Shown piece after piece: positions 1,336-32,141 of a stretch of 36,031 nucleotides of DNA; position 1 is the stretch's first letter; each line of letters opens with the position of its first letter. The notes below the pieces were generated by a model. That model was not told where the DNA came from. It made no database searches and saw only the letters and a list, made by a program, of their open reading frames with translations. The position numbers and the translations under genes are program-made. The DNA comes from Lachnospiraceae bacterium (lineage in GTDB: Bacteria > Bacillota > Clostridia > Lachnospirales > Lachnospiraceae): positions 1 to 36,031 of the forward strand of contig JAILBX010000025.1 in assembly GCA_024680675.1 (NCBI GenBank). The letters run 5' to 3'.

Positions 1336-1351
1336 TAAAGGGTAATATCAT

Positions 1352-4514: not shown

Positions 4515-4554
4515 TAAGATATCATAATTTATTCATACTTTGTTCATTTTTTTG
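4501..4554 (+). terminator. Probable intrinsic terminator between the histidine kinase and the ABC operon
   Basis: ATGAACAAA (4501-4509) pairs perfectly with TTTGTTCAT (4539-4547) and is followed by a T run. The stem is AT-rich with a long loop. Confidence 0.5.
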
Positions 4555-4677
4555 ATAAAAATAAGAACTTTTAAGATAAATAACTCTATGGTTTTGTGAA
4601 AATTGTCGGTATAAAATACAAAATGTAAATAGATTTTTGACATATTTTATGTCGGAACAAAACAGGAGGAAAATAAT

Positions 4678-5829: not shown

Positions 5830-5871
5830 TCAAGGTTAAGGTATTACAGAAATATAAGGTAAGAACCTTGG

Positions 5872-5902
5872 GAGGCTCCGGATATCCCGGAGCCTCTTTT
5901 TT
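5872..5902 (+). terminator. Intra-operon intrinsic terminator/attenuator after the first binding protein gene
   Basis: GAGGCTCCGG-atat-CCGGAGCCTC stem followed by TTTTTT. Confidence 0.9.
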
Positions 5903-5946
5903 AAAAGAAAAAACCGGAGAAGGGTATCTATGAAAGGAGACAGACT

Positions 5947-7458: not shown

Positions 7459-7459
7459 A

Positions 7460-8551
7460 ATGAATACGGATAGAAAAAAAGCTCATTTTTTGACAAAAGT
7501 AAAAAATTGGCCCCTGCTTCTTCCGGTGGTCAGTCTTATCCTTGTTATGGCTGTAAACATAGTTCATGATGCGGCAACGGGAGTTAATCCCTTATCCTTC
7601 TTTATCATATCTCTTAATGAGACCACCAGTAACGGAACTATACTTTACGGCAGAATAATCGATATATTGAATCGAGGCAGTGAGGTGGCTATACTTGCTC
7701 TTGGAATGACCCTTGTGGTTTCCTCTTCTGCAGGAACTGATATTTCAGTCGGCTCTGTCATGAGTCTTTCAGCCTCATTTTGCTGTATGCTTTTAGCCGG
7801 TTACGGGGTTTCCTCCACAAATGAACTTGCAGTTCCTTTGGTAGTGGGAGTGCTTGCAGCTCTTTTTATGGGAGCCCTTTGCGGAGCCTTTAACGGGACA
7901 CTTGTTGCCTATCTTGGGATACAGCCTATGGTTGCGACCCTGATATTATTCTCGGCGGCAAGAGCCATAGGGCTGCTCTTATGTAACGATCTTATTGTTT
8001 ATGTAAGAAATGATTCCTACGGATATTTCGGAGGCTTTACAGGCCCCATTCCGACTCCCATAATAATAGCGGCAATATGTATAGCCATAGTTGCCATTAC
8101 CTTAAACAAAACCTCAATGGGTATGTATATCCAGTCGGTAGGTATCAATTCAAAGGCCAGCAGGATAGCGGGACTTAATTCAAAGAGGATCATTTTTCTT
8201 ACCTACCTTATCTGCGGTCTCTTTGCAGGAGTTGCAGGTCTTGTAAACTCTTCAAGGATCACCTCTGCAGATTCAAATAATATCGGACTCTATTACGAGA
8301 TGGATGCCATATTGGCGGTTGCTCTGGGAGGTAACAGTCTTGGAGGCGGTAAGTTTAATCTGGCAGGATCCATAATCGGAGCTTATACTATTCAGGCTAT
8401 AACAACAACCCTTTACGCTTTGGGAGTTTCAACCGATCAGGCACCGGTTTTCAAAGCGATCATCGTTATAATCATAGTTGCCATACAGGCACCTCCAATT
8501 AAGGCTTACTTTAGGAAAAAATCATTGGAAAAGGGGGTTGCTAAGGCATGA
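7460..8551 (+). CDS. Sugar ABC transporter permease (YtfT/RbsC-like)
   Basis: ORF track starts at TTG 7439, but ATG 7460 after aggaggtgaagaat is the likelier start. Multi-TM protein with GMTLVVSSSAGTDISVGSVMSLSA and ILAVALGGNSLGGGKFNLAGS. Confidence 0.92.
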   Translation: MNTDRKKAHFLTKVKNWPLLLPVVSLILVMAVNIVHDAATGVNPLSFFIISLNETTSNGTILYGRIIDILNRGSEVAILALGMTLVVSSSAGTDISVGSVMSLSASFCCMLLAGYGVSSTNELAVPLVVGVLAALFMGALCGAFNGTLVAYLGIQPMVATLILFSAARAIGLLLCNDLIVYVRNDSYGYFGGFTGPIPTPIIIAAICIAIVAITLNKTSMGMYIQSVGINSKASRIAGLNSKRIIFLTYLICGLFAGVAGLVNSSRITSADSNNIGLYYEMDAILAVALGGNSLGGGKFNLAGSIIGAYTIQAITTTLYALGVSTDQAPVFKAIIVIIIVAIQAPPIKAYFRKKSLEKGVAKA

Positions 8552-9567
8552 AAACAAGAAAGATGAACTCTAACACCGTACTGCTTCTTATAACCATTGC
8601 ACTTTTCTTTGTGCTTTATGGCGGTGGATGTATAGCATACAGTGGTAAAGGCTTTACCCATTTACAGACCTTCTTAAATATTCTTATCACGAATGCCGGT
8701 CTGATATGCGTGGCCTGCGGACTGACGGTAGTAATGCTTACGGCGGGAATAGATATTTCGGTCGGTTCACTGGTGGCTATGGACTGTATGATGCTGGCAG
8801 TTGGTATGGAAAAGGGCATAGGCGCAGTACCTATGTGTATTCTTATAATCGTTACAGGAGTTGTTTTTGGCCTGGTACAGGGATTCCTTATAGGCTATCT
8901 GAATATACAGCCCTTTATAGTAACAATGGCCGGTATGTTCTTTGGAAGAGGAATGACAGCAGTCATATGTTCAAAACAGGTTGCTATAACAGAAGCAATG
9001 AACTCTACCTTTTATTCCTGGGCCAATGCAAAGATCGTTCTTCCCTTTGGAGGTTATATGAACAATAAAGGTAAGTATATGGCGCCCTTTTTAAGGGTTG
9101 AGGTAGTTATAGCTCTTATAGTTCTTTTACTTACCTTCCTTATGCTCAGATACACTAAATTCGGCCGTGCTCTTTATGCGATCGGAGGAAGTGAGTCATC
9201 GGCGGTAATGATGGGACTTAATGTAAAAAGAACAAAAATGATGGCTTATGTGCTTTCTTCGGTTCTGACCTCAATTGGAGGAATCTGCTTCTGTCTGAAT
9301 ACCATGAGCGGTTCCGTTCAGCAGGCCTTGGGCTTTGAAATGGATGCCATTTCCTCAGCGGTTATCGGTGGTACTCTTTTAACAGGTGGAGTGGGTAATG
9401 TTATCGGTACCTTCTTTGGTGTCCTTATTAACGGAACAATATCATCCATAGTTAAGACTAACGGTAAGCTGGCAAGCTCCTGGCCTAACATTCTGACAGC
9501 GGCTTTATTGTTCCTCTTTATCGTTATTCAGAGTATTTTTGCTGCAGTAAGAGCAAAGAAAAAATAA
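8548..9567 (+). CDS. Sugar ABC transporter permease (YjfF/RbsC-like)
   Basis: Multi-TM protein with CGLTVVMLTAGIDISVGSLVAM and MDAISSAVIGGTLLTGGVGNVIGTFFG. 4-nt overlap with the upstream permease. Confidence 0.93.
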   Translation: MKTRKMNSNTVLLLITIALFFVLYGGGCIAYSGKGFTHLQTFLNILITNAGLICVACGLTVVMLTAGIDISVGSLVAMDCMMLAVGMEKGIGAVPMCILIIVTGVVFGLVQGFLIGYLNIQPFIVTMAGMFFGRGMTAVICSKQVAITEAMNSTFYSWANAKIVLPFGGYMNNKGKYMAPFLRVEVVIALIVLLLTFLMLRYTKFGRALYAIGGSESSAVMMGLNVKRTKMMAYVLSSVLTSIGGICFCLNTMSGSVQQALGFEMDAISSAVIGGTLLTGGVGNVIGTFFGVLINGTISSIVKTNGKLASSWPNILTAALLFLFIVIQSIFAAVRAKKK

Positions 9568-9598
9568 TATTTTTATTTAGATAACAGGTGGGGCTTCT

Positions 9599-10735
9599 AT
9601 GGGGAAAAGGATAAAGGGCTTAAGGTATATATTTTCTTTTATATTATGTCTTGCATTAACTGCCTGCTCCCAAAACATCGGTTCTGATGCAATAAAGACA
9701 GTTGATACAAAGGGAGAAGAGAGTTTTAAGAGAATATCGGAGGAAAATGCTGACGAAAGGATAGTAAAAAATTCCGGGAGAGAGCTTACTATAGGCTTTT
9801 CACAGGTGGGAGAGGAGTCCGATTGGAGACTGGCTTCCATAAGGTCGGTAAAGGAGGCCTTTTCCAATAAAAACGGCTACAACCTTATTTATGATAATGC
9901 CCAGCAGAAGCAGGAAAACCAGATAAAGGCTGTAAGGGAATTTATTGATCAAAATGTTGATTATATCATAATAGATCCCATAACAGAGCTGGGTTGGGAA
10001 AACACTCTTAAGGAAGCCAGGGAGGCCCAGATACCTGTTGTAATAGTGGACAGAAATGTCCGGGTTACGGAAGAGGGTCTCTTAAAGGCCTGGATAGGAT
10101 CGGATTTTAAGCTGGAGGGTGATAAGGCCTGTGCGTGGCTTAAGAGCTTTCTTGATAACAATAAGCTGATAGGAAGGATGAACATTGCACATATTCAGGG
10201 TACAATAGATTCTTCCGCCCAGCTTGGCAGAACGGCTGCTTTGGATGAAGCCCTCTCAAAGTATAATAACTGGAGACTTATAGCAAGGGATAGCGGAGAC
10301 TTTACTCAGGCCAAGGGTAAAGAGATCATGAAAAAGTTTCTGAGCCGATGGGGATCAGAGATAAATATTGTTTTTTGCGAAAATGACAATGAGGCATTTG
10401 GAGCGATCGAGGCTATTGAAGAATACGGGAGAAAAGTCGGAAAGGATATCAGAAAGGGAGAAATTCTGGTGATATCCTTTGATTCCACAAGGATAGGCTT
10501 AAAGAAGACCCTGGAGGGTAAAATAGCCCTGAATGTGGAGTGTAATCCGGATTACGGTCCAAGTCTTACCCAAATTGTTATGGATATTGAGGAAGGCAAG
10601 ACAGTATCCAAGGATCTGTATCTTGAGGAAAATCTTTTTTCAACAGTAGACTCCATAAAGGATGTAAGGTTAGAATCAAAGACCTATCCTGTGACAATAG
10701 TTACTAAAGAGCTTATAGAATCGCGAAATTATTGA
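9599..10735 (+). CDS. Second YtfQ-like sugar-binding lipoprotein, paralogue of 4678..5829
   Basis: Lipobox LALTACSQ, then LTIGFSQVGEESDWRLASIRSVKEAFS...QIKAVREFIDQNVDYIIIDPITELGWENTLKEA. Alignable throughout to the first binding protein. Confidence 0.9.
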   Translation: MGKRIKGLRYIFSFILCLALTACSQNIGSDAIKTVDTKGEESFKRISEENADERIVKNSGRELTIGFSQVGEESDWRLASIRSVKEAFSNKNGYNLIYDNAQQKQENQIKAVREFIDQNVDYIIIDPITELGWENTLKEAREAQIPVVIVDRNVRVTEEGLLKAWIGSDFKLEGDKACAWLKSFLDNNKLIGRMNIAHIQGTIDSSAQLGRTAALDEALSKYNNWRLIARDSGDFTQAKGKEIMKKFLSRWGSEINIVFCENDNEAFGAIEAIEEYGRKVGKDIRKGEILVISFDSTRIGLKKTLEGKIALNVECNPDYGPSLTQIVMDIEEGKTVSKDLYLEENLFSTVDSIKDVRLESKTYPVTIVTKELIESRNY

Positions 10736-10772: not shown

Positions 10773-10802
10773 TTGACAAATCTTAGATACATAGTGTAGA
10801 CT
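10773..10802 (+). promoter_or_regulatory. Putative promoter upstream of asnB
   Basis: TTGACA (10773-10778), 18-nt spacer, TAGACT (10797-10802). Confidence 0.5.
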
Positions 10803-10811
10803 CATTCAAGT

Positions 10812-10827
10812 AAGACAAAGGCGTCTT
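10812..10827 (+). promoter_or_regulatory. ANTAR-type antiterminator hairpin (P2-like) in the asnB leader
   Basis: AAGAC-AAAGGC-GTCTT: 5-bp stem, hexaloop with A1 and G4. Its 3' half lies in the 5' arm of the downstream terminator. Differs by one base from the gltB-leader hairpin. Confidence 0.7.
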
Positions 10828-10856
10828 GGAGACAATCTCCGAGACGCCTTTTTTTT
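10818..10856 (+). terminator. Leader terminator upstream of asnB
   Basis: AAGGCGTCTTGGAGA-CAA-TCTCCGAGACGCCTT stem followed by a T tract. Confidence 0.9.
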
Positions 10857-10888: not shown

Positions 10889-12541
10889 ATGTGTTCGATC
10901 ATTGGTTATTGTGGCGAAGGTGCAGCTGCAGAAGAGATAGCAGAAGCACTTTCGAAAACTGATTCAAGAGGTCCGGATGCCAGTCGTATTCTTGATACCG
11001 GCAAAGGATGGCTTGGATTTAACAGGTTATCTATTATGGGTTTAACAGAAGAGGGGATGCAGCCCTTTATGTACGGCAATAATAATACCTTAGCCTACAA
11101 TGATCAAAAGGATAATGAAAAGCTTTATAAATTGCCAAAGGATTGTGAGACAGCCATTGTATGTAACGGTGAGATATATGGATTCAGAAAATTAAAAAAA
11201 GATCTGTCCCAAAAAGGATACAGTTTTATAAGCGATTCGGATTGTGAGATCCTTCCGGCTCTTTACAGGGAATACGGAACGGATATGTTTGAAAAGCTGG
11301 ATGCCGAGTATGCACTGGTTATCTATGACAGGATAAATGATTCCTATATAGCAGCAAGAGATCCCATTGGTATCAGGCCCCTGTATTACGGCATAAGCAG
11401 TAAAGGAGTTTATTGTTTTGCTTCAGAGCCTAAAAACCTTTTAAAGCTGGTGGGTAAGATATATCCCTTCCCTCCCGGACATTATTTTAAGGACAATAAA
11501 TTCATAAAATACAGAGATATGTCAGAGGTTTCAAAGGTAATAGAGGATGATCTTGAAAAGGTATGTGAAAATATCCACGATCTGCTGGTTAAGGGAGTTG
11601 AAAAAAGACTTGATTCCGATACACCCGTAGGCTTCCTGCTTTCGGGAGGACTTGATTCCTCTTTGGTATGCGGTATCGCATCAAAGATGACTGATAAAGC
11701 GCTTAAGACCTATGCCATAGGAATGGATGTGGATGCCATTGATCTTAAATACGCCAAGGAGGTTGCAGAATATATAGGGTCTGAGCACCATGAGGTGATA
11801 ATAAGCAGGGAGGATGTTATTAAGGCTCTTCCCTTAGTCATAAAGGCTCTTGGAAGCTATGACATAACAACAATACGAGCTTCCATAGGAATGTATCTGG
11901 TCTGTAAGGCAATACATGAAGAATCCGATATCAGAGTCATAATGACAGGAGAGATATCAGATGAGATCTTCGGATACAAATATACGGATTTTGCTCCAAA
12001 TCCTGAGGAATTTCAGAAGGAAGCAAAAAAGAGGATAAAAGAAATACATATGTATGATGTATTAAGGGCTGACCGTTGTATCAGCGTAAATTCTCTGGAG
12101 GCAAGGGTGCCCTTTGGTGATCTGGATTTTGTGGATTATTGTATGGCTATAGATCCTGCAAAAAAAATGAATAAATACGGTAAGGGCAAGTACCTTTTGA
12201 GGCATGCCTTTGAAAAAGACAAGCTGATACCCGACTCCATATTATGGAGAGAAAAGGCTGCATTTTCAGATGCTGTGGGACATTCCCTTAAGGATGACCT
12301 GGCAGAATATGCAGAGGAAAGATATTCAGATGAGGAATTTTTAAAGGGTGTGGAAAAATATGAGCATGCAAAGCCCTTTACAAAGGAATCACTTTTATAC
12401 AGAGATATATTTGAAGAGTTTTATCCCGGACAGTCAGAAATGGTAAAGGACTTCTGGATGCCCAATAAAAACTGGGAAGGCTGCAATGTTAACGATCCTT
12501 CGGCAAGGGTATTGTCAAACTATGGAGACAGCGGCTGCTGA
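10889..12541 (+). CDS. asnB: Asparagine synthase (glutamine-hydrolysing)
   Basis: MCSIIGYCGEG with Cys2 nucleophile (class II amidotransferase), VCNGEIYGFRKL, GFLLSGGLDSSLVCGIASK (PP-loop), VNSLEARVPFGD. Confidence 0.95.
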   Translation: MCSIIGYCGEGAAAEEIAEALSKTDSRGPDASRILDTGKGWLGFNRLSIMGLTEEGMQPFMYGNNNTLAYNDQKDNEKLYKLPKDCETAIVCNGEIYGFRKLKKDLSQKGYSFISDSDCEILPALYREYGTDMFEKLDAEYALVIYDRINDSYIAARDPIGIRPLYYGISSKGVYCFASEPKNLLKLVGKIYPFPPGHYFKDNKFIKYRDMSEVSKVIEDDLEKVCENIHDLLVKGVEKRLDSDTPVGFLLSGGLDSSLVCGIASKMTDKALKTYAIGMDVDAIDLKYAKEVAEYIGSEHHEVIISREDVIKALPLVIKALGSYDITTIRASIGMYLVCKAIHEESDIRVIMTGEISDEIFGYKYTDFAPNPEEFQKEAKKRIKEIHMYDVLRADRCISVNSLEARVPFGDLDFVDYCMAIDPAKKMNKYGKGKYLLRHAFEKDKLIPDSILWREKAAFSDAVGHSLKDDLAEYAEERYSDEEFLKGVEKYEHAKPFTKESLLYRDIFEEFYPGQSEMVKDFWMPNKNWEGCNVNDPSARVLSNYGDSGC

Positions 12542-12626: not shown

Positions 12627-14726
12627 ATGAGAAGAGAAAAGCTACCGGACATTTTTGGTTCAATGGTATTTGATGACAGAGTTATGAGATCAAGACTTTC
12701 TGAAAAGGTCTATAAGTCCCTTAAGAAAACGATCGATGAGAATGCAAAGCTTGATGAGGATGTTGCAAATGCTGTTGCAGAGGAGATGAGAGAATGGGCA
12801 TTGGAAAAGGGTGCTACACATTTTACTCATTGGTTTCAGCCTCTTACAGGCGTAACGGCTGAAAAGCACGACAGTTTTATCACACCATCTCCTGATGGCG
12901 GAGTGATAATGGAGTTTTCGGGAAAGGAGCTGATAAAGGGAGAGCCCGATGCCTCATCCTTTCCTTCGGGAGGCTTAAGAGCCACCTTTGAGGCCAGAGG
13001 TTATACAGCCTGGGATCCTACCTCCTATGCCTTTATAAAGGATCATACACTCTGTATTCCAACTGCCTTCTGTTCTTATTCGGGAGATGCTCTTGATAAA
13101 AAAACTCCCCTCTTAAGATCTATGCAGGCTCTTGATCGTCAGGCAAAAAGAATATTAAAGCTCTTTAAGGTTGATGCCAAATACGTAAGGACCAGTGTGG
13201 GACCTGAGCAGGAATACTTTCTTATAGACAGTGAAATGTATGAAAAAAGACCGGATCTTATCTATACGGGAAGAACCTTATTCGGGGCTATGCCGCCTAA
13301 GGGCCAGGAACTTGATGACCACTACTTTGGTGTTATAAAGCCAAGGGTTACAGCCTTTATGGAGGATCTGAATAATGAGCTGTGGAAGCTTGGTATCCTT
13401 GCAAAAACAGAGCATAATGAGGTTGCTCCCGCTCAGCATGAGCTGGCTCCCATATATTCAACAACAAATGTGGCAACAGATAATAACCAGCTTACTATGG
13501 AGATAATGCAGAAGGTGGCAAGAAAGCATGGAATGGTATGCCTGCTCCATGAAAAGCCCTTTGCCGGTGTGAACGGATCAGGAAAGCATAACAACTGGTC
13601 TATGGCAACGGATAGCGGAATGAACCTTCTTTCACCGGGAGAAACACCTTATGAGAATGCCCAGTTCCTTTTGTTCCTAAGCGCAGTAATTAAGGCTGTT
13701 GACGATTATCAGGATCTTTTAAGACTTTCGGTTGCTACTGCCGGAAATGATCACAGATTGGGAGCAAACGAGGCACCACCTGCCATCATTTCAATATTCC
13801 TTGGAGACGAGCTTACAGAGGTGCTTGAGGCAATAAAGAATGATAAGCCCTATAAGGGTAAGGAGAGGGAGCTTATGAAGCTTGGGGTTTCGGCCCTTCC
13901 GAGATTTTCAAAGGATACCACGGACAGAAACCGTACTTCACCCTTTGCCTTTACGGGTAATAAATTTGAATTCAGATCACTTGGATCCTCAAACAGCATA
14001 GCCTGCTGTAACATCATGCTAAACGCCGCAGTTGCGGAATCACTTAAGGAGTTTGCGGATGTCCTTGAAAAGGCTGATGATTTTGAAAATGCCCTTCATG
14101 ATCTTATAAAAAATACCATTAAGGAGCATGAGAGGATCCTCTTTAACGGAAACGGATATACAGAGGCCTGGGTAGAGGAGGCAACCAAGGTAAGAGGCTT
14201 GTCAAACCTGCGTACCACAGTGGATGCCATGCCTCATCTGCTGGATGAAAAAAATAAGACAATGCTTATGGCTCATAAGGTTTTCACTGAGTCAGAGCTT
14301 AAGTCAAGATGTGAGATAATGCTTGAAAACTACTGTAAAACAGTAAATATCGAAGGACATACCATGGTAGATATGGTAAGAAAGAACTACCTTCCGGCTA
14401 TAGAGGATTATCTTTATAATCTGGCAAAGACCACATCACTTATGAAATCGGTAAGCAGTAATGTAAAGTGTAATTATGAGATAACAACAATGGAGCGTTT
14501 ATCAGAGCTTACCGACTATATACTTGAAAGGGTAAAGGATCTTGAAGCTGCCCTGGAAGCCCTTAAAGAGTATGATGATATTTTAAAGACCGCAGAAGCT
14601 ATAAGAGATGATGTTATTCCAAAGATGGAGCATTTAAGAAAGCATGTGGATGAGGCGGAAATGCTTACCAGCGAAGACTGCTGGCCCTTCCCAAGCTATG
14701 GAAAGCTTTTGTTTTCGGTTTATTGA
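12627..14726 (+). CDS. glnN: Glutamine synthetase type III
   Basis: 699 aa, [86 protein letters not shown], all typical of GSIII. Confidence 0.95.
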
Positions 14727-14764
14727 TAAAGAAGGAATTAACAGTAAGGTTTTGTTTTGACGTA

Positions 14765-14811
14765 GTCATCCCACAATGGAGTGGATTCATTGCTGGGGTG
14801 ACTTTTATTTT
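14765..14811 (+). terminator. Intrinsic terminator/attenuator between glnN and amt
   Basis: GTCATCCCACAATG pairs with CATTGCTGGGGTGAC (one bulge, one G-U), followed by TTTTATTTT. Confidence 0.85.
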
Positions 14812-14876
14812 AGGCAAAATTGTGAAGAGCAGATATCATAGCAGATTCACATTTAGCAGAATAGGAGGAGATTAAT

Positions 14877-16691: not shown

Positions 16692-16722
16692 GGCAAAGTC
16701 CTTCCTTGAGGAGGACTTTGCC
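16692..16722 (+). other. Long stable hairpin between amt and purF, lacking a U tract
   Basis: GGCAAAGTCCT (16692-16702) pairs perfectly with AGGACTTTGCC (16712-16722). Followed by taaatg rather than T's. Confidence 0.8.
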
Positions 16723-16756
16723 TAAATGTGCGTATATAAGCAGAAAGGAAAAGGTA

Positions 16757-18139
16757 ATGGAGGAAATTTCTGAGGATAAATTAAAAGAAGAATGCGGAGT
16801 GATGGCAATCCTTTCAGGGGAAGAGGAGAACATTGCAAAGGATATTTACTATGGACTTACGGCTCTTCAGCACAGGGGTCAGGAATCTGCCGGAATGGCC
16901 CTTTCACAAACAAGGGGTCCTGTGGGGAACATTCAGCTTCTAAAGGGTATGGGTCTTGTAAATGAGGTCTTTAATAAAGAGGAGCTTAATAAGCTTAAGG
17001 GTAATATCGGAGTGGGTCACGTCAGATATTCCACCACCGGGGGAAGTGTGGTGGAAAATGCCCAGCCCATATCCATGAATTACATAAAGGGAACTCTTTC
17101 CTTAGTTCATAACGGGAATATAGTTAACAGTAAAGAGCTTAAGGAAAAACAGATGTACAGGGGACAGGCTCATTACACCACCTCGGATTCCGAGCTTCTT
17201 GCCTATGAGATAATAAATGAAAGGATAAGGAGCTCATCCATAGAAGAGGCGGTTAAGAATACTGCAGCCAGGATAAAGGGGGGATATGCCCTGGTGGTTA
17301 TGAGCCCAAGAAAGCTGGTTGCTATAAGGGATCCCCAGGGAATAAAACCCCTTATATTGGGGAAAAAGGGTAAAAGCTATATCATAGCCTCTGAAAGCTG
17401 CGCCATAAAAGTTCTTGGGGGAGAGGTGATCAGGGATATAGCTCCCGGGGAAGTGCTGACTGTATCCGAAAAAGGCCTTATAAGCGATAAAAGTCTCTGC
17501 AGAGAAAAAATCGCCCATTGTGTTTTCGAATATATATATTTTGCAAGACCGGATTCCGTAATTGATTCTGTTTCCGTTAGCGAGGCCAGATACAGGGCAG
17601 GAAGGGCTCTGGCAAAGAGGGACAGGGTTTGTGCGGATATAGTCTGTGGAGTGCCGGATTCAGGTCTGATAGCGGCAGAGGGCTATGCTGATGAAGCTAA
17701 GATACCCTTTTCATTCATCTTTCATAAAAACAGCTATATAGGAAGAAGCTTTATAAAACCCACAGATGAGGAAAGGAAAAATGCAGTAGAGCAAAAGCTC
17801 AGTGTCCTTGAAAATGTGGTAAGGGGTAAGCGCATTGTCCTGATCGATGATTCCATCGTCAGAGGAACAACTATGGGACAGATAATAACAATGTTAAGGA
17901 AGGCAAAAGCAACAGAGGTACATGTAAGGATAAGCTCTCCGCCCTTTTTATATCCATGCTACTACGGAACCGATGTACCTTCCTCTAATCAGCTTATTGC
18001 TTCAAAGCATTCCACAGAGGAGGTCAGGGAAAGGATAGGAGCGGATTCACTTTCCTATTTAAGGCTTGAAGATTTTAAGGAAATGGTAGGCGAGCTTCCC
18101 CTTTGCAGGGCCTGTTTTGACAATGATTATCCCGTATAG
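16757..18139 (+). CDS. purF: Amidophosphoribosyltransferase
   Basis: MEEISEDKLKEECGVMAIL (Cys nucleophile after propeptide), GLTALQHRGQESAGMAL, GNIGVGHVRYSTTGGS, VLIDDSIVRGTTMGQII (PRPP loop). ATG 16757 with SD is preferred over the ORF-track start 16706. Confidence 0.95.
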   Translation: MEEISEDKLKEECGVMAILSGEEENIAKDIYYGLTALQHRGQESAGMALSQTRGPVGNIQLLKGMGLVNEVFNKEELNKLKGNIGVGHVRYSTTGGSVVENAQPISMNYIKGTLSLVHNGNIVNSKELKEKQMYRGQAHYTTSDSELLAYEIINERIRSSSIEEAVKNTAARIKGGYALVVMSPRKLVAIRDPQGIKPLILGKKGKSYIIASESCAIKVLGGEVIRDIAPGEVLTVSEKGLISDKSLCREKIAHCVFEYIYFARPDSVIDSVSVSEARYRAGRALAKRDRVCADIVCGVPDSGLIAAEGYADEAKIPFSFIFHKNSYIGRSFIKPTDEERKNAVEQKLSVLENVVRGKRIVLIDDSIVRGTTMGQIITMLRKAKATEVHVRISSPPFLYPCYYGTDVPSSNQLIASKHSTEEVRERIGADSLSYLRLEDFKEMVGELPLCRACFDNDYPV

Positions 18140-18172: not shown

Positions 18173-18201
18173 TTGACATAAAAGGGATAGGTGGTTAAAA
18201 T
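18173..18201 (+). promoter_or_regulatory. Putative sigma-A-type promoter upstream of gltB
   Basis: TTGACA (18173-18178), 17-nt spacer, TAAAAT (18196-18201). Confidence 0.8.
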
Positions 18202-18207
18202 GTTATA

Positions 18208-18225
18208 GAAGTCAAGGGAGACTTC
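18208..18225 (+). promoter_or_regulatory. ANTAR-type antiterminator hairpin P1 in the gltB leader
   Basis: GAAGTC-AAGGGA-GACTTC: perfect 6-bp stem with hexaloop A1/G4, at the predicted transcript 5' end. Confidence 0.75.
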
Positions 18226-18272
18226 GAGTTATAAATTAAGCAGTGATATAGTTTAAAGAAAGAGATCATAAA

Positions 18273-18288
18273 AAGACAATGGCGTCTT
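18273..18288 (+). promoter_or_regulatory. ANTAR-type antiterminator hairpin P2 in the gltB leader
   Basis: AAGAC-AATGGC-GTCTT: 5-bp stem with hexaloop A1/G4, overlapping the terminator 5' arm. Confidence 0.78.
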
Positions 18289-18314
18289 GGGTTAATACCT
18301 GAGACGCCTTTTTT
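18281..18314 (+). terminator. Leader terminator upstream of gltB
   Basis: GGCGTCTTGGGT-TAAT-ACCTGAGACGCC stem followed by TTTTTT. Confidence 0.92.
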
Positions 18315-18331
18315 CATTGGAGGTTTTCTTT

Positions 18332-21300
18332 ATGAGAGAGAAATTAAGAGAGTATGGTAAAAAGGATAATCAGGAAAAGGCTAAGGGTTTGTACAGCCCT
18401 GACTTTGAGCATGATAATTGCGGTATCGGAGCGATCATAGATATTGAAGGCCGATGGAGCCATAAGCTTGTAAGCGATGCTCTTTCAATAGTAGAAAATC
18501 TTGAACACAGGGCAGGAAAGGATGCTGAAGGAAAGACAGGTGACGGAGTAGGTATCCTGACACAGATCCCCCATAAATTTTTCGTAAAAAAAATGAAGGA
18601 GGAGGGTATAGAGCTTCCGGGCTACAGACAGTATGGAGTTGGAATGTTCTTCTTTCCTCAAAAGGATTTAGAGCTTAGACAGTCTAAGTCCATGTTTGAA
18701 ATAATTGTCCGAAAAAGCGGACTTAAGATATTAGGCTGGAGAAAGGTTGAATATGATCCCAAGGTTTTGGGTAAAAAGGCAAGGGAATGTATGCCCAATA
18801 TTTATCAGGTATTTATTGAACGTCCCCAGTCTGTAAAGGAGGATATTGATTTTGATCGTCTTCTTTATATAGTCAGAAGAGAATTTGAGCAGAGTAATGT
18901 CAACACCTATGTTCCATCTCTTTCTTCAAGAACCATAGTTTACAAGGGTATGTTTCTTGTAGGACAGCTCAGGACATTTTTTACCGATCTTATGGATGAG
19001 GACTATGAATCGGCCATAGCCATGGTGCATTCACGTTTTTCAACCAATACTGCTCCAAGCTGGAACAGAGCTCATCCCAACCGTTTTATAGTACATAACG
19101 GTGAGATAAATACAATAAAGGGAAATTCCGACAAAATGCTGGCAAGGGAAGAGACCATGCACAGCTCTATGTTTTCTGAGGAGGATATGACTAAGGTCTT
19201 TCCCGTTATATCACAAAGCGGATCGGACTCGGCAATGCTTGATAACACTTTGGAGTTTCTTGTAATGAGTGGAATGGAGCTGCCCCTTGCGGCAACGATA
19301 CTGATACCTGAACCATGGGCTCATAATGAAACTCTAAGTCAGGAGGAAAGAGATTTTTACCAGTATTATGCTACTATGATGGAGCCCTGGGACGGACCTG
19401 CATCCATTCTTTTTTCCGATGGAGACGTTATGGGTGCAATATTGGACAGGAACGGATTAAGACCTTCAAGATACTATGTCATGGATGATAATAGACTTAT
19501 TTTGTCATCGGAAGTCGGAGTCCTTGATCTTCCCGAAGAGCACATAGTAAAGAAGGAAAGACTTCATCCCGGAAAGCTTTTACTGGTTGATACCAGAGAG
19601 AAAAGGATCATTTATGATGAAGAGCTGAAAGAAAGATACGCCAAGAGGAATCCCTATGGGGAATGGCTTGACAGCAAGCTTTTAACCCTGACCTCCGTAA
19701 AGGTGCCTAATAAAAAGGTTGTAAATTATTCAAGAGAAGAAAGGGCCAGACTGCAGAAGGCCTTTGGCTATACCTTTGAAAACTATCATGACAGCATAAT
19801 GGCAATGGCCTTAAACGGAACGGAAGCCATTGGCTCCATGGGAGTTGACACGCCTATAGCTGCTCTCTCTACCGAATATCAGCCCCTCTTTTATTACTTC
19901 AAGCAGCTTTTTGCCCAGGTCACAAATCCGCCTATAGATGCAGGAAAAGAGGAAATAGTTACTTCAAGGACCGTATATCTTGGAAAGAACGGAAATTTAT
20001 TGGAGGAAAAGCCTGAAAACTGCCAGGTTCTTCAGATAAATAATCCGATACTTACAGACCTTGACCTCTTAAAGATAGAAAATATTAAAAAGGAAGGCTT
20101 CAAGGTAGCAAAGATCTCAATACTTTTCTATAAGAGTACCCCCATGAAAAGAGTATTGAACCACCTCTTTGTGGAAGTGGATAAGGCCTATAGAGGAGGG
20201 GCCAATATCCTGATACTTTCAGACAGAGGGGTGGATGAAAACCATGTGGCTATTCCCTCTCTCCTGGCGGTGGCATCAGTTCATAAGCATCTTGTTGATA
20301 CAAAAAAGTGTACTGCCATGTCTTTAATAGTTGAATCGGGGGAACCAAGGGAGGTACATCATTTTGCCACTCTCTTAGGCTATGGAGCTTCGGCTGTAAA
20401 CCCCTATCTGGCTCATTCCACTATAGCAGAGCTTGTGGAGGAGGAGCTTCTTGACAAGGATTATTATGCTGCGGTAGATGACTATGACAAGGCCATACTT
20501 TTCGGAATAGTAAAGATCGCTTCCAAAATGGGTATTTCCACGATCCAGTCCTATCAGGGCAGCATGATCTTTGAGGCAATCGGTGTTTCGGAGGATGTTA
20601 TAAAGGATTATTTTACAAAGACTGTAAGCCGTGTAGGCGGGATCAGTCTTGAGGATATAGGAGAAGCTGCAGACAGGCAGCACAGTAAAGCCTTTGATCC
20701 TTTGGGATTAAATGTGGATCTTGAGCTTACTGCCATGGGAAGGCATAAGGAGAGAAGTCAGGGAGAAAAGCACAGATATGATCCAAGGACCATACATATG
20801 CTGCAGCTTTCCGTAAGAGAAGGAAGCTATGAGAAGTTTAAAGAGTTTACCAAAATGGTGAACAGGGAAGAAAGCGGATATTTAAGAAGTCTTTTGGATT
20901 TTAAGCTTCCAAAGGAGGGAATACCTCTTGAAGAGGTGGAAAGTGAAGAAAATATAGTTAAGAGGTTTAAGACCGGAGCCATGTCCTATGGCTCAATATC
21001 AGAGGAGGCTCATGAAACTCTGGCCATCGCAATGAATCATCTTCATGGAAAAAGCAACAGCGGAGAAGGCGGAGAAAGCGATGAGAGGATAGCCTCAGCA
21101 GGAAGTGAGAATGACAGAAGCTCTGCCATAAAGCAGGTTGCCAGCGGAAGATTCGGTGTAACAAGTAAATATCTTGTAAGCGCAAAGGAGATACAGATAA
21201 AGATGGCCCAGGGAGCAAAGCCCGGGGAAGGAGGACATCTTCCCGGAAGGAAGGTTTATCCCTGGATAGCAAAAACCAGGCATTCCACCCCCGGAGTCAG

Positions 21301-22902
21301 TCTTATATCCCCTCCGCCCCATCATGATATTTACTCCATAGAGGATCTGGCCCAGCTTATATATGACTTAAAATGCGCCAATAAAAATGCGAGGATATCG
21401 GTTAAGCTGGTTTCAGAGGCAGGAGTAGGTACTGTAGCGGCAGGAGTTGCCAAGGCCGGGGCTTCGGTTGTGCTGATATCCGGTTATGACGGAGGTACCG
21501 GAGCAGCACCTTTATCATCAATACATAATGCAGGTCTTCCCTGGGAGCTTGGATTATCAGAGACTCATCAGACTCTTATACAAAACGGTCTGAGGAATCG
21601 GGTTGTAATAGAAACCGATGGCAAGCTTATGAGCGGAAAGGATGTGGCAATAGCAGCCATGCTTGGAGCGGAGGAATTTGGCTTTGCAACCACACCCCTT
21701 ATAACTCTTGGCTGTGTAATGATGAGACAGTGTCAATCGGATACCTGTCCCATGGGTATAGCCACTCAGAATCCTGAGCTTAGGAAGAATTTTTCAGGTA
21801 AGCCTGAGTATGTGGAAAACTTTATGATATATATTGCAAGAGAGCTGAGGGAAATAATGAGTTCTCTTGGAATAAGGACAGTTGAAGAGCTGGTGGGAAG
21901 AAGCGATCTTTTAAAGGTTAAGGATGAATTGAGTAAGAGTCAGCAAAAGCTGGATCTTTCAAGAATACTTTACAGAAATTCCAAGGAGCAGCTGTCCCAT
22001 AAAAAGGAGGATCTTTATGATTTTAAGCTGGAGAAAACAAAGGATGAGTCTCTGCTTTTAAAGGATCCGTCTATAATGAAGTCCATAAAGACGGGAGAGA
22101 AGTCAAAGATCGAGCTTCATCTTACAAGCACCGACAGAACCTTTGGAACCCTCTTAGGGGCAGAGATAACAAGGAATAATCCCGAAGGCTTAAAGGAGGA
22201 TACCATTGTCATTGATTGTCAGGGATCAGGCGGTCAGAGCTTTGGAGCCTTTATACCATCAGGCCTGACCTTAAGACTTTCCGGCGACAGTAATGACTAC
22301 TTCGGAAAGGGACTTTCAGGAGGAAAGCTTATAGTAGCTGCACCAAAGGAAGCAAAATATGATCCGGGAGAAAATATAATCATAGGTAATGTAGCCCTTT
22401 ACGGAGCAACCCTTGGGAAGGTCTTTGTAGCGGGAATGGCGGGAGAAAGATTTGCCATAAGAAACTCGGGAGCCATTGCGGTGGTAGAAGGTTTAGGAGA
22501 GCATGGCTGTGAATACATGACCGGAGGAAGAGTAGTCGTCCTTGGTCCTACCGGTAAGAATTTTGCGGCAGGAATGAGCGGGGGAATAGCTTATGTGCTG
22601 GATGAAAAGAACACCCTTTATAAAAATCTGAATAAAGAGCTTGTATCCATGGAAAAGGTGGAGGAAAAAGAGGATCTTGAGGAGTTAAAGAGGATAATCA
22701 CAGAGCATGTGGAAGCCACAGGTTCAAAGAAGGGAAAGAAGATACTTTCGGATTTTAACAGCTATATAGAAAGCTTTAAGAAGATAATACCCGTGGATTA
22801 TAAAGAGATATTAAGACTTACAGCCAGGGAAATGGAAAAGGGCACGGATCCTGAAACAGCCAAGATTGAAGCCTTCAAAGCATTTACAGGAGGGATAAGA
22901 TA

Positions 22903-22903
<1 letters not shown>
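18332..22903 (+). CDS. gltB: Glutamate synthase, large subunit
   Basis: GLYSPDFEHDNCGIGAIIDIEGRWSHK (Ntn Cys after propeptide), GEGGESDERI, KPGEGGHLPGRKVYPWIAKTRHSTPGV, CVMMRQCQSDTCPMGIATQNPELR (Fe-S). ATG 18332 follows ggaggt. Confidence 0.96.
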
Positions 22904-27087
<4,184 letters not shown>

Positions 27088-27088
27088 T

Positions 27089-30000
27089 ATGCCTAAGAGA
27101 AAAGATATAAAAAAAGTATTGGTCATCGGATCAGGACCTATAGTCATAGGTCAGGCCGCTGAGTTTGACTATGCCGGAACACAGGCCTGCATAGCCCTTA
27201 AAGAGGAGGGCTATGAGGTAATACTTGCCAATTCAAATCCTGCCACCATAATGACGGATAATACTATTGCTGATAAGGTTTATATGGAGCCTCTTACCTT
27301 AGAGTATATGGCAAGAATATGCCGCTATGAGAGACCGGATGCCATAATACCGGGAATAGGAGGTCAGACAGGCTTAAATCTTTCCCTTCAGCTTTATGAT
27401 AAAGGAGTTTTGGATGAGTGTGAAATAGAGCTTTTGGGAACGGATGCCGACAGTATAAGAAGGGCTGAGGACAGAGAGAGATTTAAGGAATTATGTGAGG
27501 AGCTAAAGGAACCGGTAGTGCCCTCAGCTATTGCAGAGACGGTTGAAGAAGGCCTTTTGGCAGCTGAAAAGATAGGCTATCCGGTTATATTAAGGCCTGC
27601 CTTTACCCTTGGAGGAACAGGAGGAGGCTTTGCAGCTGATCCCTCTGAGATGGGGGAAAAAATGAAGATCGCCCTTTCACTGTCACCGGTGCATCAGGTT
27701 CTTGTGGAAAAGAGCATTAAGGGCTATAAGGAAATAGAGTATGAGGTTATAAGGGATGCAAACAATACGGCTATCACAGTCTGTAATATGGAGAATCTTG
27801 ATCCTGTGGGGATCCATACAGGGGATTCCATTGTGGTAGCCCCAAGTCAGACTCTTACCAATAAGGAGTATCATATGCTCAGGGATTCAGCCCTTAAGAT
27901 AATCAGGGCCCTTAAGATAAAGGGAGGATGTAATGTTCAGTTTGCCCTGGATCCGGAATCCTTCAGATACTATGTTATTGAGGTCAATCCCAGAGTTTCA
28001 AGATCCTCAGCATTAGCTTCAAAAGCCAGTGGATATCCCATAGCCAGAGTCTCTGCCAAGATAGCCGTGGGGTTGAACCTTGATGAAATAAAGCTTAAAA
28101 ATACACCGGCTTGTTTTGAACCAAGCCTTGATTATGTTGTTACAAAGATGCCAAGATTTCCTTTCGATAAATTTGACCTTGCCTCCAATGTGCTCTCAAC
28201 CCAGATGAAGGCTACGGGAGAGACTATGAGTGTGGGCAGAACAATGGAGGAAAGCCTGCTTAAGGCCATAAGATCCTTAGAGGATGGAAAAAATCATATT
28301 CATCTTGAGAAATTCGATCTTAAAAATCTTTCAGACAAGAAGGGTAGCAGAGGCCGGGAGGAGGCTATAGAAAAGCTTCTTTCTTATATAGAGGACGGAA
28401 CCGATGACAGGATATACGCCATTTCCGAGCTCTTATGGCTGGGAGTCGACCCCCAGGTCATATATTTAAGAACCAGAATAGATATGTTCTTTTTGGATAA
28501 GATAAAGAATATAGTAGAGCATGAAAAAAAGATAGAGAAGCTAAGCCTTGAAGAAAAAGATAAAAATGCGGATTTTCTTGACAGGGATGCTCTTTATGAG
28601 GCTAAGTCCATGGGCTTTTCCGATTCTTATATAGCAGAGCTTTGTAAGGTAAGTGAAGAGGAGGTCTGGAATTTAAGAAGAAAATATAAGATATATCCCG
28701 TTTATAAAATGATCGATACCTGCGCCAGTGAGTTTGAAAGCTATGTTCCCTACTTTTATTCCACCTATGAAGAAGAAAATGAATCAAAGGTATCAGGAAA
28801 GAAGAAGATAATAGTACTGGGCTCAGGTCCCATAAGAATAGGTCAGGGAGTTGAGTTTGACTATTCCACGGTTCATGCATTAAAAACAATAAAGGAGCTG
28901 TCCTATGAGGCTATTGTTATAAATAATAACCCGGAAACCGTTTCAACGGATTATACCTCGGCAGACAAGCTTTATTTTGAACCTTTGACAACAGAGGATA
29001 TAATGAATATTGTTGAGCTTGAAAAGCCCCTGGGAGTGATCATATCATTAGGGGGACAAACAGCAGTAAATCTGGCAGAGCCTCTGGCCAAAAGGGGCGT
29101 TAATATAATAGGAACCGACAGCAGGGCAATATTTCTGGCTGAGGACAGGGATGCCTTTGAAAATATAATAATGGAATTAAATATTGCCCATCCCAAAGGC
29201 CTTGCGGTAACAGATATAGAGGAAGGCAAAAAGGCTGCCTCAGAGATCGGGTATCCCGTACTGGTAAGACCCTCTTTTGTTTTGGGAGGAAGGGCCATGG
29301 AGATAGTGGCCAATGAGGAAATGCTTGTCCATTATCTGAAAAATGCAGTTGAAGTGGACAAGGATAAGCCTGTATTAGTTGACAGTTATATAGTTGGAAA
29401 AGAGGTGGAGGTGGATGCCGTCTGTGACGGAGAAAATGTTTTCCTCCCCGGTATAATGGAGCTTGTTGAAAGAACCGGAGTCCACTCGGGAGACAGCATA
29501 AGTGTCTATCCCCCCTATTCCATATCAAAAAATGTAAAGGAAACCATAAGGGAATATACCAAAAAGCTTGGAATTGGTTTGGGAATAAAGGGTCTCTTTA
29601 ATATTCAGTTTATTGTAGACAGGGATGATAAGGTATATGTTATAGAGGTAAATCCCAGGGCGTCAAGAAGCGTTCCCTTTTTATCCAAGTCCTCAGGAGT
29701 CAATCTGGTAAATATTGCAACTAAGGTCATGCTGGGACATAGCTTAAAGGAACAGGGCTATGCCGACAGGGATATGATAGAGAAGGAGCAGTGGTATGTT
29801 AAGGCTCCTGCCTTTTCCTTTGAAAAGCTGAACGGAATGGATGCATATCTGTCTCCGGAAATGAAGTCAACGGGAGAGGCAATAGGCTATGATAAAAGCC
29901 TTAAAAGGGCCCTGTATAAAGCACTTCAGGCATCAGGCATCAAGATGAAGGAGTATGGGACGGTTATGGTAACCCTGGCAGATGAGGATAAGGAGGAAGC

Positions 30001-30331
30001 CCTGCCCCTTATCAGACGTTTTTATGAGCTTGGCTTTAATATAGAAGCAACGGCAGGAAGCGGTCATTTCCTTAAGGAAAAGGGAATAAGGACCAGGATC
30101 AGAGGAAAGCTGAGCGAAGGAAGCGATGAAATATTAAGGTCTATCAAAGCAGGCTATGTAAGTTATATAATAAATACAAGAGCCATACTTTCGGGAGTTC
30201 ATTATAAGGATGGCGTAGAGATAAGAAAATGTGCTATTTTAAATGGTGTGACCATGTTTACTTCTCTTGATACAGTTAGGATACTTCTTGATGTTTTAGA
30301 GGATATAACCCCAAGGATCTCAGTCATATAG
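27089..30331 (+). CDS. carB: Carbamoyl-phosphate synthase large subunit
   Basis: MPKRKDIKKVLVIGSGPIVIGQAAEFDYAGTQACIALKEEGYEVILANSNPATIMTD with a duplicated ATP-grasp architecture, 1080 aa. Confidence 0.98.
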   Translation: MPKRKDIKKVLVIGSGPIVIGQAAEFDYAGTQACIALKEEGYEVILANSNPATIMTDNTIADKVYMEPLTLEYMARICRYERPDAIIPGIGGQTGLNLSLQLYDKGVLDECEIELLGTDADSIRRAEDRERFKELCEELKEPVVPSAIAETVEEGLLAAEKIGYPVILRPAFTLGGTGGGFAADPSEMGEKMKIALSLSPVHQVLVEKSIKGYKEIEYEVIRDANNTAITVCNMENLDPVGIHTGDSIVVAPSQTLTNKEYHMLRDSALKIIRALKIKGGCNVQFALDPESFRYYVIEVNPRVSRSSALASKASGYPIARVSAKIAVGLNLDEIKLKNTPACFEPSLDYVVTKMPRFPFDKFDLASNVLSTQMKATGETMSVGRTMEESLLKAIRSLEDGKNHIHLEKFDLKNLSDKKGSRGREEAIEKLLSYIEDGTDDRIYAISELLWLGVDPQVIYLRTRIDMFFLDKIKNIVEHEKKIEKLSLEEKDKNADFLDRDALYEAKSMGFSDSYIAELCKVSEEEVWNLRRKYKIYPVYKMIDTCASEFESYVPYFYSTYEEENESKVSGKKKIIVLGSGPIRIGQGVEFDYSTVHALKTIKELSYEAIVINNNPETVSTDYTSADKLYFEPLTTEDIMNIVELEKPLGVIISLGGQTAVNLAEPLAKRGVNIIGTDSRAIFLAEDRDAFENIIMELNIAHPKGLAVTDIEEGKKAASEIGYPVLVRPSFVLGGRAMEIVANEEMLVHYLKNAVEVDKDKPVLVDSYIVGKEVEVDAVCDGENVFLPGIMELVERTGVHSGDSISVYPPYSISKNVKETIREYTKKLGIGLGIKGLFNIQFIVDRDDKVYVIEVNPRASRSVPFLSKSSGVNLVNIATKVMLGHSLKEQGYADRDMIEKEQWYVKAPAFSFEKLNGMDAYLSPEMKSTGEAIGYDKSLKRALYKALQASGIKMKEYGTVMVTLADEDKEEALPLIRRFYELGFNIEATAGSGHFLKEKGIRTRIRGKLSEGSDEILRSIKAGYVSYIINTRAILSGVHYKDGVEIRKCAILNGVTMFTSLDTVRILLDVLEDITPRISVI

Positions 30332-30372
30332 ATAGCTTTATGGAGTGTACAGAAAGGATAGGAAGGATCGAT

Positions 30373-31548
30373 ATGAATTATTCAATGGAAGAAGTTATGA
30401 AGTTTATAGAGGAGGAGGATGTGAAGTTTATCCGTCTTGCCTTCAGGGATGCCTACGGAGTTCAGAAGAATATCTCGGTTATGCCGGGGGAGGTGAAGAA
30501 GGCCTTTGAGGAAGGCGCCCCCATAAATGCCAGGAGGATAGCAGGCTTTTACAACTGTCCCTATGCATCCTTGTATTTGAAACCGGATCCCGATACCCTT
30601 GCCATCCTTCCCTGGAGACCTGACAGCGGGAAGGTTTTGAGGATGTTCTGTGATATGTATACTGCTGAGGGAGAAGAGTATGCATCAGATACCAGGCCCA
30701 TGTTGAAAAAGGCGGTAAAGGCAGCAAAGAATGCGGGTATTGAATTCAGGTTCGGAACAGAGACCGAGTTTTACCTTTTTAACAAGGATGAGGATGGAAA
30801 TCCAACCAAGATTCCCTATGATAAGGCCGGATATATGGACATTGCCCCTTTAGACAGGTGTGAAAATGTAAGAAGGGAGATATCCCTCACCATTGAGAGG
30901 ATGGGACTTACGCCTGAAAGATCCCATCACGAGAGAGGACCGGGACAAAATGAGATAGATTTTCACTATTCTAAGCCCCTTAAAGCGGCAGATCAGATGA
31001 CTACCTTTAAGATGGTTGTGAGTACCATGGCGGACAGATACGGTCTTGTGGCGGATTTTTCTCCCATGCCTTTGCCTGAAAATCCCGGGAACGGCTATCA
31101 TATCAATATCTATGCTGTGGATAAGGGGGGAAATGACGTTGTAAAGTATGCGGCTGCAGGAATACTTGACAAGATAAGGGATATCACTATCTTTCTTAAC
31201 CCGACTGAAGCATCCTATTCAAGACTTGGAAATAATACGGCACCGGATAAGGTGAACTGGTCAAGTGCCGGAGAGTCAGAGCTTTTATATGTGGAGACCT
31301 ATGCGGGAAAGACCAGGGTCGAATTAAGATCCCCGGATGCATCCAGCAATCCCTATCTTGTATATACCCTTTTAATTTATGCCGGACTTGAGGGAATAGA
31401 AAAAAAGCTGGAGCTTCCCACAGAAATGTCAGATGAAGCAATGTTTTTACCGGGCTCCAAGAAGGAGGCTGCAAAGCTGGCGATCAAGAGTGATTTTGTA
31501 AAGCGCATCGTTCCTGAGGAGATAATCAGAACGTATGTAAATATATAA
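30373..31548 (+). CDS. glnA: Glutamine synthetase type I-like (short)
   Basis: VKFIRLAFRDAYGVQKNISV, FRFGTETEFYLF, HHERGPGQNEIDFHYSKPLKAADQMTTFK, NPGNGYHINIYA, TRVELRSPDASSNPYLVY. ATG 30373 after aggaagga is preferred over the ORF-track start 30340. Confidence 0.93.
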   Translation: MNYSMEEVMKFIEEEDVKFIRLAFRDAYGVQKNISVMPGEVKKAFEEGAPINARRIAGFYNCPYASLYLKPDPDTLAILPWRPDSGKVLRMFCDMYTAEGEEYASDTRPMLKKAVKAAKNAGIEFRFGTETEFYLFNKDEDGNPTKIPYDKAGYMDIAPLDRCENVRREISLTIERMGLTPERSHHERGPGQNEIDFHYSKPLKAADQMTTFKMVVSTMADRYGLVADFSPMPLPENPGNGYHINIYAVDKGGNDVVKYAAAGILDKIRDITIFLNPTEASYSRLGNNTAPDKVNWSSAGESELLYVETYAGKTRVELRSPDASSNPYLVYTLLIYAGLEGIEKKLELPTEMSDEAMFLPGSKKEAAKLAIKSDFVKRIVPEEIIRTYVNI

Positions 31549-31559
31549 GGAGTAGCTTT

Positions 31560-32141
31560 ATGCCCAAAAAAGAAGACATATATCATTCCATACTGATCGT
31601 ATCCTCCTCAGAACAGTTTGGCTCCCTGGTTAAAGGCTTTTTTTCAGGATTTGTAACAATAGACTCCCAAAAAAGTGCTGCTCAGGCAAGAAGGTGTGTA
31701 CTTGAAAGGTATTATGATCTTATATTGATCAATTCCCCCCTTGCAGATGAGACAGGAGAGGATTTTGCCATAGATGTCACTGAAAGCTCTAATGCATCCG
31801 TGCTTCTTGTGAGCCCAAGAGAGCAGTACGAAGAGGTGCTTGAAAGATTGACAGAATATGGCGTACTTGTATTGTCAAAGCCTCTGCCAAGGAGAAGACT
31901 TGATAATGCCTTTAAGTTCCTTGGAGCACTTCAAAAGAGAATAAGAAATATTGAGGATAAAAACAGGGCTCTTGAGGAAAAAATGGAGGAATTAAGACTT
32001 GTTAGCAAGGCCAAGTTCTATCTGGTGGAGGAAGAAGGTATGACCGAAGACGAGGCTCATAAATACATAGGTAAAATGGCCATGGATAATGGTATCTCCC
32101 GAGGAAAGGCAGCAAGACGGATACTGGATGATGCAGACTGA
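31560..32141 (+). CDS. ANTAR-domain RNA-binding antiterminator with degenerate receiver domain (NasT/NitR/EutV-like)
   Basis: C-term EMRLVSKAKFYLVEEEGMTEDEAHKYIGKMAMDNGISRGKAARRIL is a clear ANTAR domain. The N-term receiver fold has IVSSSEQ in place of the acidic pair and LILINSP in place of the phospho-Asp. Confidence 0.92.
   Translation: MPKKEDIYHSILIVSSSEQFGSLVKGFFSGFVTIDSQKSAAQARRCVLERYYDLILINSPLADETGEDFAIDVTESSNASVLLVSPREQYEEVLERLTEYGVLVLSKPLPRRRLDNAFKFLGALQKRIRNIEDKNRALEEKMEELRLVSKAKFYLVEEEGMTEDEAHKYIGKMAMDNGISRGKAARRILDDAD

Follow-up and report, generated by a model that had tools for sequence, protein, structure and literature searches.

A glnA-linked ANTAR protein and candidate single-hexaloop antitermination leaders before nitrogen-assimilation genes of Lachnospiraceae and relatives

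ANTAR leaders described so far

In Enterococcus faecalis, the eut leaders (Ramesh 2012, PMC3369931; Walshe 2022, PMC8934654) carry two hairpins, P1 and P2, whose hexaloops have A at position 1 and G at position 4 (A1/G4); an intrinsic terminator shares the 3′ side of P2. The natural P1–P2 linker is 5–12 nt long; linkers of 14 or +20 nt impair or abolish function, and in vivo as well as in vitro EutV depends on both hairpins and on the short linker (PMC3369931, PMC8934654). In the current model, an ANTAR dimer prevails over the terminator by engaging P1 first and P2 afterwards, both being required; for EutV, P1 is needed in time, before the terminator forms (PMC8934654). EutV also binds isolated single hexaloops in vitro, with an affinity about that of the dual motif. 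Walshe 2022 left open how far single hexaloops act in ANTAR function and expected them where no transcribing polymerase sets a time limit (PMC8934654). A broader P1–P2 linker of 2–25 nt was accepted in PMC8164766.

Other ANTAR systems share parts of this design. AmiR of Pseudomonas and NasR of Klebsiella use A1/G4 loops with terminator overlap, as do the leaders described below, but have P1 plus P2 in both cases and sense through AmiC and a NIT domain, respectively. ANTAR control of GS/GOGAT genes is already known, from Ramesh 2012 (PMC3369931) and, insofar as PMC6316151 relates the work of Stutz 2007, from glnA-nitR and the nitrogen-assimilation cluster of Clostridium saccharobutylicum, where the ANTAR protein NitR is described as an inducer of GS/GOGAT genes that acts by antitermination under nitrogen limitation. 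Target gene and RNA loop type are shared with the ANTAR RNAs before glutamate synthase of Desulfotomaculum reducens; these were found by a two-hairpin model (PMC3369931), to which single-hexaloop leaders are invisible.

A nitrogen-assimilation cluster and its gltB leader

The window analysed here is a stretch of 36,031 nucleotides from a Lachnospiraceae bacterium whose assembly comprises 288 contigs and is 85% complete; the nitrogen genes and leader elements described below lie on the + strand. Its nitrogen-assimilation cluster consists of asnB (asparagine synthase, 10889–12541), glnA type III (glnN, glutamine synthetase, 12627–14726), an ammonium transporter that carries a P-II domain as a C-terminal fusion (PF00909 + PF00543, 14877–16649), a purF-like amidophosphoribosyltransferase gene (16706–18139), gltB (glutamate synthase large subunit, 18332–22903, with its ATG at 18332 and the mechanical ORF opening at 18317), a gltD-like small subunit gene (22903–24387), pyrG, carA and carB (24401–30331), glnA type I (30340–31548), and an ANTAR gene (31560–32141). 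The names purF-like, gltD-like, pyrG, carA, and carB are sequence readings. The Amt/P-II (GlnK-like) fusion sits within the regulated cluster, and a strong hairpin without a T run, GGCAAAGTCCTTCC-TTGA-GGAGGACTTTGCC, lies between amt and purF (16694–16721). The region 577–10735 is taken up by an ABC transporter cluster of the sugar type, which also encodes two periplasmic binding proteins, a histidine kinase, and a response regulator of the AraC type; it appears to be unrelated.

Upstream of gltB, a sigma-70-type promoter (18173–18201; 11/12 matches) was read directly as TTGACA (18173–18178), a 17-nt spacer, and TAAAAT (18196–18201), and ranked first within 9.5 kb in a promoter scan. Transcription is predicted to start near 18208, so that P1, GAAGTC-AAGGGA-GACTTC (18208–18225), with its 6-bp stem and the hexaloop AAGGGA, would form the 5′ end of the transcript. 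A 47-nt linker (18226–18272) separates it from the P2 antiterminator hairpin, AAGAC-AATGGC-GTCTT (18273–18288), and A1 and G4 are present in both hexaloops. The intrinsic terminator (18281–18314) has a 12-bp stem, GGCGTCTTGGGT-TAAT-ACCTGAGACGCC at 18281–18308, directly followed by TTTTTT. Because both use GGCGTCTT, P2 and the terminator cannot form together. For the 116-nt leader, the folding energy is −31.2 kcal/mol (z = −4.25), and 1 of 200 shuffles was equally stable. A preliminary description of this DNA had given positions for the leader and the sequences of promoter, P1, P2, and terminator, all of them correct on direct reading, and its statements on A1/G4 in both loops and on mutual exclusion through GGCGTCTT are borne out.

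Two other elements were considered in this leader and rejected. PyrR, the top match of an Rfam scan, scored 23.5 bits against a gathering threshold of 54 bits; an alternative weak P1, TTT-AAAGAA-AGA (18252–18263), has a linker of 9 nt and just 3 bp, one of them G-U.

Leaders with one hexaloop in the window and its relatives

A second leader, absent from the preliminary description, precedes asnB. Its whole extent, 10773–10851, holds P2 and a terminator only: a promoter, TTGACA-18-TAGACT (10773–10802), with a predicted start near 10809, a single hexaloop hairpin, AAGAC-AAAGGC-GTCTT (10812–10827), at the predicted transcript start, and a strong intrinsic terminator overlapping that hairpin (10817–10851). 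Because the hairpin begins ~3 nt after the predicted start, the asnB leader has neither a P1 nor space for one. An Rfam scan of this leader brought up no family near its gathering threshold. A weaker candidate for a third site lies before amt (14764–14812), where a bulged terminator has a 5′ arm that can form CCAC-AATGGA-GTGG (A1, G4); it folds at −23.3 kcal/mol (z −4.37), no promoter was seen there, and the strict scan did not pick it up. The explanation that we favour as a whole, and hold to be likely, makes the gltB leader one of two, possibly three, ANTAR-controlled attenuators in this cluster.

Relatives of these leaders were sought with a covariance model seeded with 13 P2–terminator elements, both window leaders included, in which the terminator pairs alone were imposed; E-values of the window leaders are therefore circular, being in the seed, and those of non-seed genomes are not (e.g., G306, 3.7e-9). 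The exact pattern AAGACANNGGCGTCTT matched 10 genomes among 195 relatives and so proved too strict; the covariance model was used instead. With the model, matches at E ≤ 0.05 were seen in 145 of the 195 relatives, several to a genome, and the P2–terminator element was found before nitrogen genes in many of them. About 110 leaders were fetched from relatives, and 113 distinct leaders were analysed for loop and promoter.

The P2 stem lies outside the structure imposed by the model. Over 102 leaders, 92% of its cells are paired, with 69 double changes against 21.7 in shuffles, and the terminator stems covary as well. The loop consensus in the 113 leaders is A-A-N-G-G-C, with A1 in 110, A2 in 113, G4 in 113, G5 in 110, and C6 in 106; the covariation and A1/G4 loop conservation that the preliminary description had expected of homologous leaders were both found. 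Part of this conservation is imposed by the terminator, within which lie the P2 3′ arm and loop positions 4–6. One might accordingly see here constitutive terminators with a 5′-end stability hairpin, the A1/G4 loop arising incidentally from the GGCGTC... sequence of the terminator. This we regard as very improbable: the core terminator stem includes neither the P2 5′ arm nor loop A1/A2, but the arm shows the pairing and double changes given above, A1 and A2 are nearly invariant, and the leaders are restricted to nitrogen genes.

The genes 3′ of the leaders are overwhelmingly glutamine and ammonium genes. The family set comprises glnA-III (34), asnB (16), purF-like (13, three of which resemble glmS), amt (8), gltB (7), carA (6), glnA-I (5), pyrG (2), and a dapF group (7); the names dapF, glmS, guaA, and gdhA, here and below, are sequence readings. 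A second search, in a named-genome collection, used a pattern of promoter and P2 in which a terminator was not demanded, and at least 119 records matched, nearly all of them Clostridia. Among the matches listed, an overlapping terminator is present in 101 of 123 distinct leaders, against 14 of 153 control CAANGGCG sites, and the P2 stem is complete, with 5 bp, in 116 of the 123. Among these listed matches, the genes downstream are glnA-III (37), amt (13), asnB (11), glnA-I (11), pyrG (6), purF-like (6), gltB (4), and carA (1), together with gdhA, guaA, and dapF. One matching record, L326, is titled Marsarchaeota archaeon and bears the clostridial pattern, probably because its contig was mis-binned or else by chance.

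Several leaders deserve separate mention. Single-hexaloop leaders precede dapF-like genes (L130, L137, L155, L158, L162, L172, L195) and an LL-diaminopimelate aminotransferase-like gene (L093, L115), which would tie lysine and cell-wall precursor synthesis to the nitrogen regulon. Four leaders of class family f35 (L229, L232, L242, L244) have the loop AAGGGT, an A/T-rich terminator stem, and a distance of 31–67 nt from the promoter, and may be a separate subtype. Upstream of gltB in L045, L059, and L060, promoter-proximal terminators with CGC-AATGGA-GCG or CGC-AAAGGA-GCG have 3-bp stems and were missed by the model; they represent a possible further variant.

In 101 of the 113 leaders, the −10 box ends 3–12 nt before P2 (shuffled, 10%), the mean −35 match is 5.7/6, and the spacing is mostly 17. 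These 101 leaders have no space for a P1, and about 90% of related leaders lack one. An upstream A1/G4 hairpin (≥4 pairs, 2–25 nt before P2), a count that is independent of the start-site position, was seen in 3 of the 113 leaders, at shuffle level (2.5%), and two of the three adjoin or sit within the promoter. The P1-like hairpins of L119 and L136, in or beside the −10 box, were rejected, as they would not be transcribed. The start-proximal form is also found in a class-wide sample, in 14 of 29 leaders.

P2 with A1/G4 and terminator overlap is common to the gltB and asnB leaders and the 113 related leaders; P1 is present at gltB in the window and in genomes G002 (AATGTC-AAAGGG-GACATT, aatgtcAAAGGGgacatt, linker 30) and G043 (TGTC-AATGGA-GACA, tgtcAATGGAgaca, linker 29), absent at asnB, and at chance level among the 113. 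P1 is real at gltB because the three orthologues keep its stem with compensatory changes on both sides. This recurrence, the perfect 6-bp stem, and the A1/G4 loop speak for a classical EutV-type dual hairpin, in which the motif needed would consist of P1 and P2 together and the other family members would have an unrecognised P1; a classical short-linker dual leader does exist in one class relative, L240. We nonetheless think this reading unlikely, since the gltB linkers of 47, 30, and 29 nt compare with 5–12 nt in eut leaders, where 14 or +20 nt already impairs or abolishes EutV function (PMC3369931, PMC8934654), and since the asnB leader of the same cluster, like 101 of the 113 relatives, leaves no space for P1. 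The EutV-type dual hairpin of the preliminary description is therefore not supported in that form, also on account of a receiver without a phosphorylatable Asp (see below), whereas its assignment to ANTAR-type antitermination stands on the exclusive P2 and terminator, A1/G4, covariation, and ANTAR co-occurrence. The gltB leader is very probably an ANTAR antitermination leader, though not the classical EutV motif: in place of P1 and P2 at 5–12 nt, there is a lone hexaloop at the predicted start site at asnB and in most relatives, or a pair 29–47 nt apart at gltB.

No report of single-hexaloop antitermination leaders was found in a library of open-access full texts. A large nitrogen-gene leader set of gut and rumen clostridia, mostly with one hairpin at the predicted transcript start, is apparently undescribed. 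The family and named sets, which may overlap, together contain more than 200 natural leaders in which a lone antiterminator hexaloop stands where the transcript is predicted to begin, and these open the need for P1 to a direct test.

The ANTAR protein and a proposed mechanism

The preliminary description had placed an ANTAR gene ~13 kb downstream, and it was located at 31560–32141, 13.2 kb away. Its NitR-like product of 193 aa has a pseudo-receiver, a coiled coil, and an ANTAR domain (PF03861, 49.4 bits against a curated cut-off of 27.3), the sole ANTAR domain of the 85% complete assembly. The C-terminal position of this domain and the antitermination logic, here read from sequence, resemble E. 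faecalis EutV. The receiver differs: in eut it is phosphorylated, whereas here a pseudo-receiver is encoded beside glnA. The receiver model scores 22.3 bits, below its cut-off of 30.2, the phospho-Asp position is Asn (DLILI-N-SPL), and the acidic pair is lost, with LIVSS in place. EutV/EutW-like kinase input is unlikely, because the phosphorylatable Asp and the acidic pair are missing; AmiR, too, has a non-phosphorylated pseudo-receiver (PMC3369936), and a second ANTAR protein clade, in other leader-bearing genomes, likewise lacks the phosphorylation site.

The ANTAR gene lies directly 3′ of glnA, as in glnA-nitR, both in the window, with a gap of 12 nt to glnA-I, and in 30 of 30 homologue loci examined. 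Judging from the protein sequence, the signal input is probably not phosphorylation but interaction, for which glutamine synthetase or P-II is suggested by the constant glnA neighbour and the Amt–PII fusion. Because glnA-I directly precedes the ANTAR gene and is itself preceded by P2–terminator leaders in some genomes, autoregulation is likely in those genomes.

Leaders and ANTAR genes occur together. At E ≤ 0.001, leaders are found in 99 of 146 relatives with PF03861 and in 2 of 49 without (Fisher p = 2e-16, a value that ignores shared ancestry). At the same threshold among these 195 relatives, the figures are 82 of 108 ANTAR-positive against 2 of 12 ANTAR-negative genomes within the family, and 17 of 38 against 0 of 37 in other families. 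A class-wide sample of 291 genomes, few of them shared, gave 57 of 145 against 8 of 146 (Fisher p = 7e-13, again ignoring shared ancestry). The ANTAR-negative carriers are relatives G023 and G028 and the 8 of 146 class genomes; some of the assemblies are incomplete, and weak matches may be due to chance. Conversely, 47 of the 146 ANTAR-positive relatives have no leader match at E ≤ 0.001.

That minority of ANTAR-negative genomes with leader matches would also fit real, regulated attenuators under the control of some metabolite, a different RNA-binding protein, or NusA-sensitive pausing, with ANTAR co-occurrence a reflection of lineage only. So would the substitution of several EutV contact residues: with a mapping that assumes a 2-residue offset, and with residue roles taken from PMC8934654, the window protein keeps Glu160, Met172, Lys147, and Lys149 and changes Tyr164 to His, Asn173 to Asp, and Arg175 to Gly. 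Against this, the loop retains exactly the A1/G4 letters read by ANTAR proteins, the association holds within the family, in other families, and in the class sample, and the ANTAR gene adjoins glnA, itself a target; we consider such a different factor quite improbable.

The reading that we prefer, and judge probable from the sequences compared, is that a glnA-linked, non-phosphorylated, NitR-like ANTAR protein stabilises a single 5′-terminal A1/G4 hexaloop so that transcription passes, P2 being enough in a large clostridial family. With P2 weak on its own (−3.2 kcal/mol) and the terminators strong (−19.7 and −26.2 kcal/mol), termination would be the default, and a protein would have to hold P2. 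Transcription would start at or a few bases before P2, making it the first RNA out of the polymerase. When active, presumably under glutamine or nitrogen scarcity, the ANTAR protein would hold P2, occupying the 5′ arm of the terminator, and RNA polymerase would read on; when the protein is inactive, the stronger terminator would displace P2 and transcription would stop after ~45 nt. At gltB, the 5′-terminal P1, 47 nt upstream of P2, would serve as an additional site of recruitment. Given the dependence of EutV on two hairpins and a short linker (PMC3369931, PMC8934654), one site alone might act too slowly or too weakly; early elongation, more abundant protein, or one that binds more tightly would perhaps replace P1.

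In its wider form, towards which we lean with less assurance, the proposal is of a clostridial global glutamine/nitrogen regulon (glnA, asnB, amt, gltBD, purF, glmS, carA, pyrG, guaA, dapF, and gdhA) under a glnA-linked pseudo-receiver ANTAR protein that needs one hexaloop, where the position of P2 at the start would remove the need for P1 by allowing capture within the first 30–45 nt. If true, it would identify a main system of nitrogen control in Lachnospiraceae of gut and rumen and in their relatives. Some leaders carry tandem P2–terminator units (L109 in G023 and, among class relatives, L230 in G253, L239 in G378, L246 in G237), two per leader and apparently three in G253, an arrangement that could give a steeper response.
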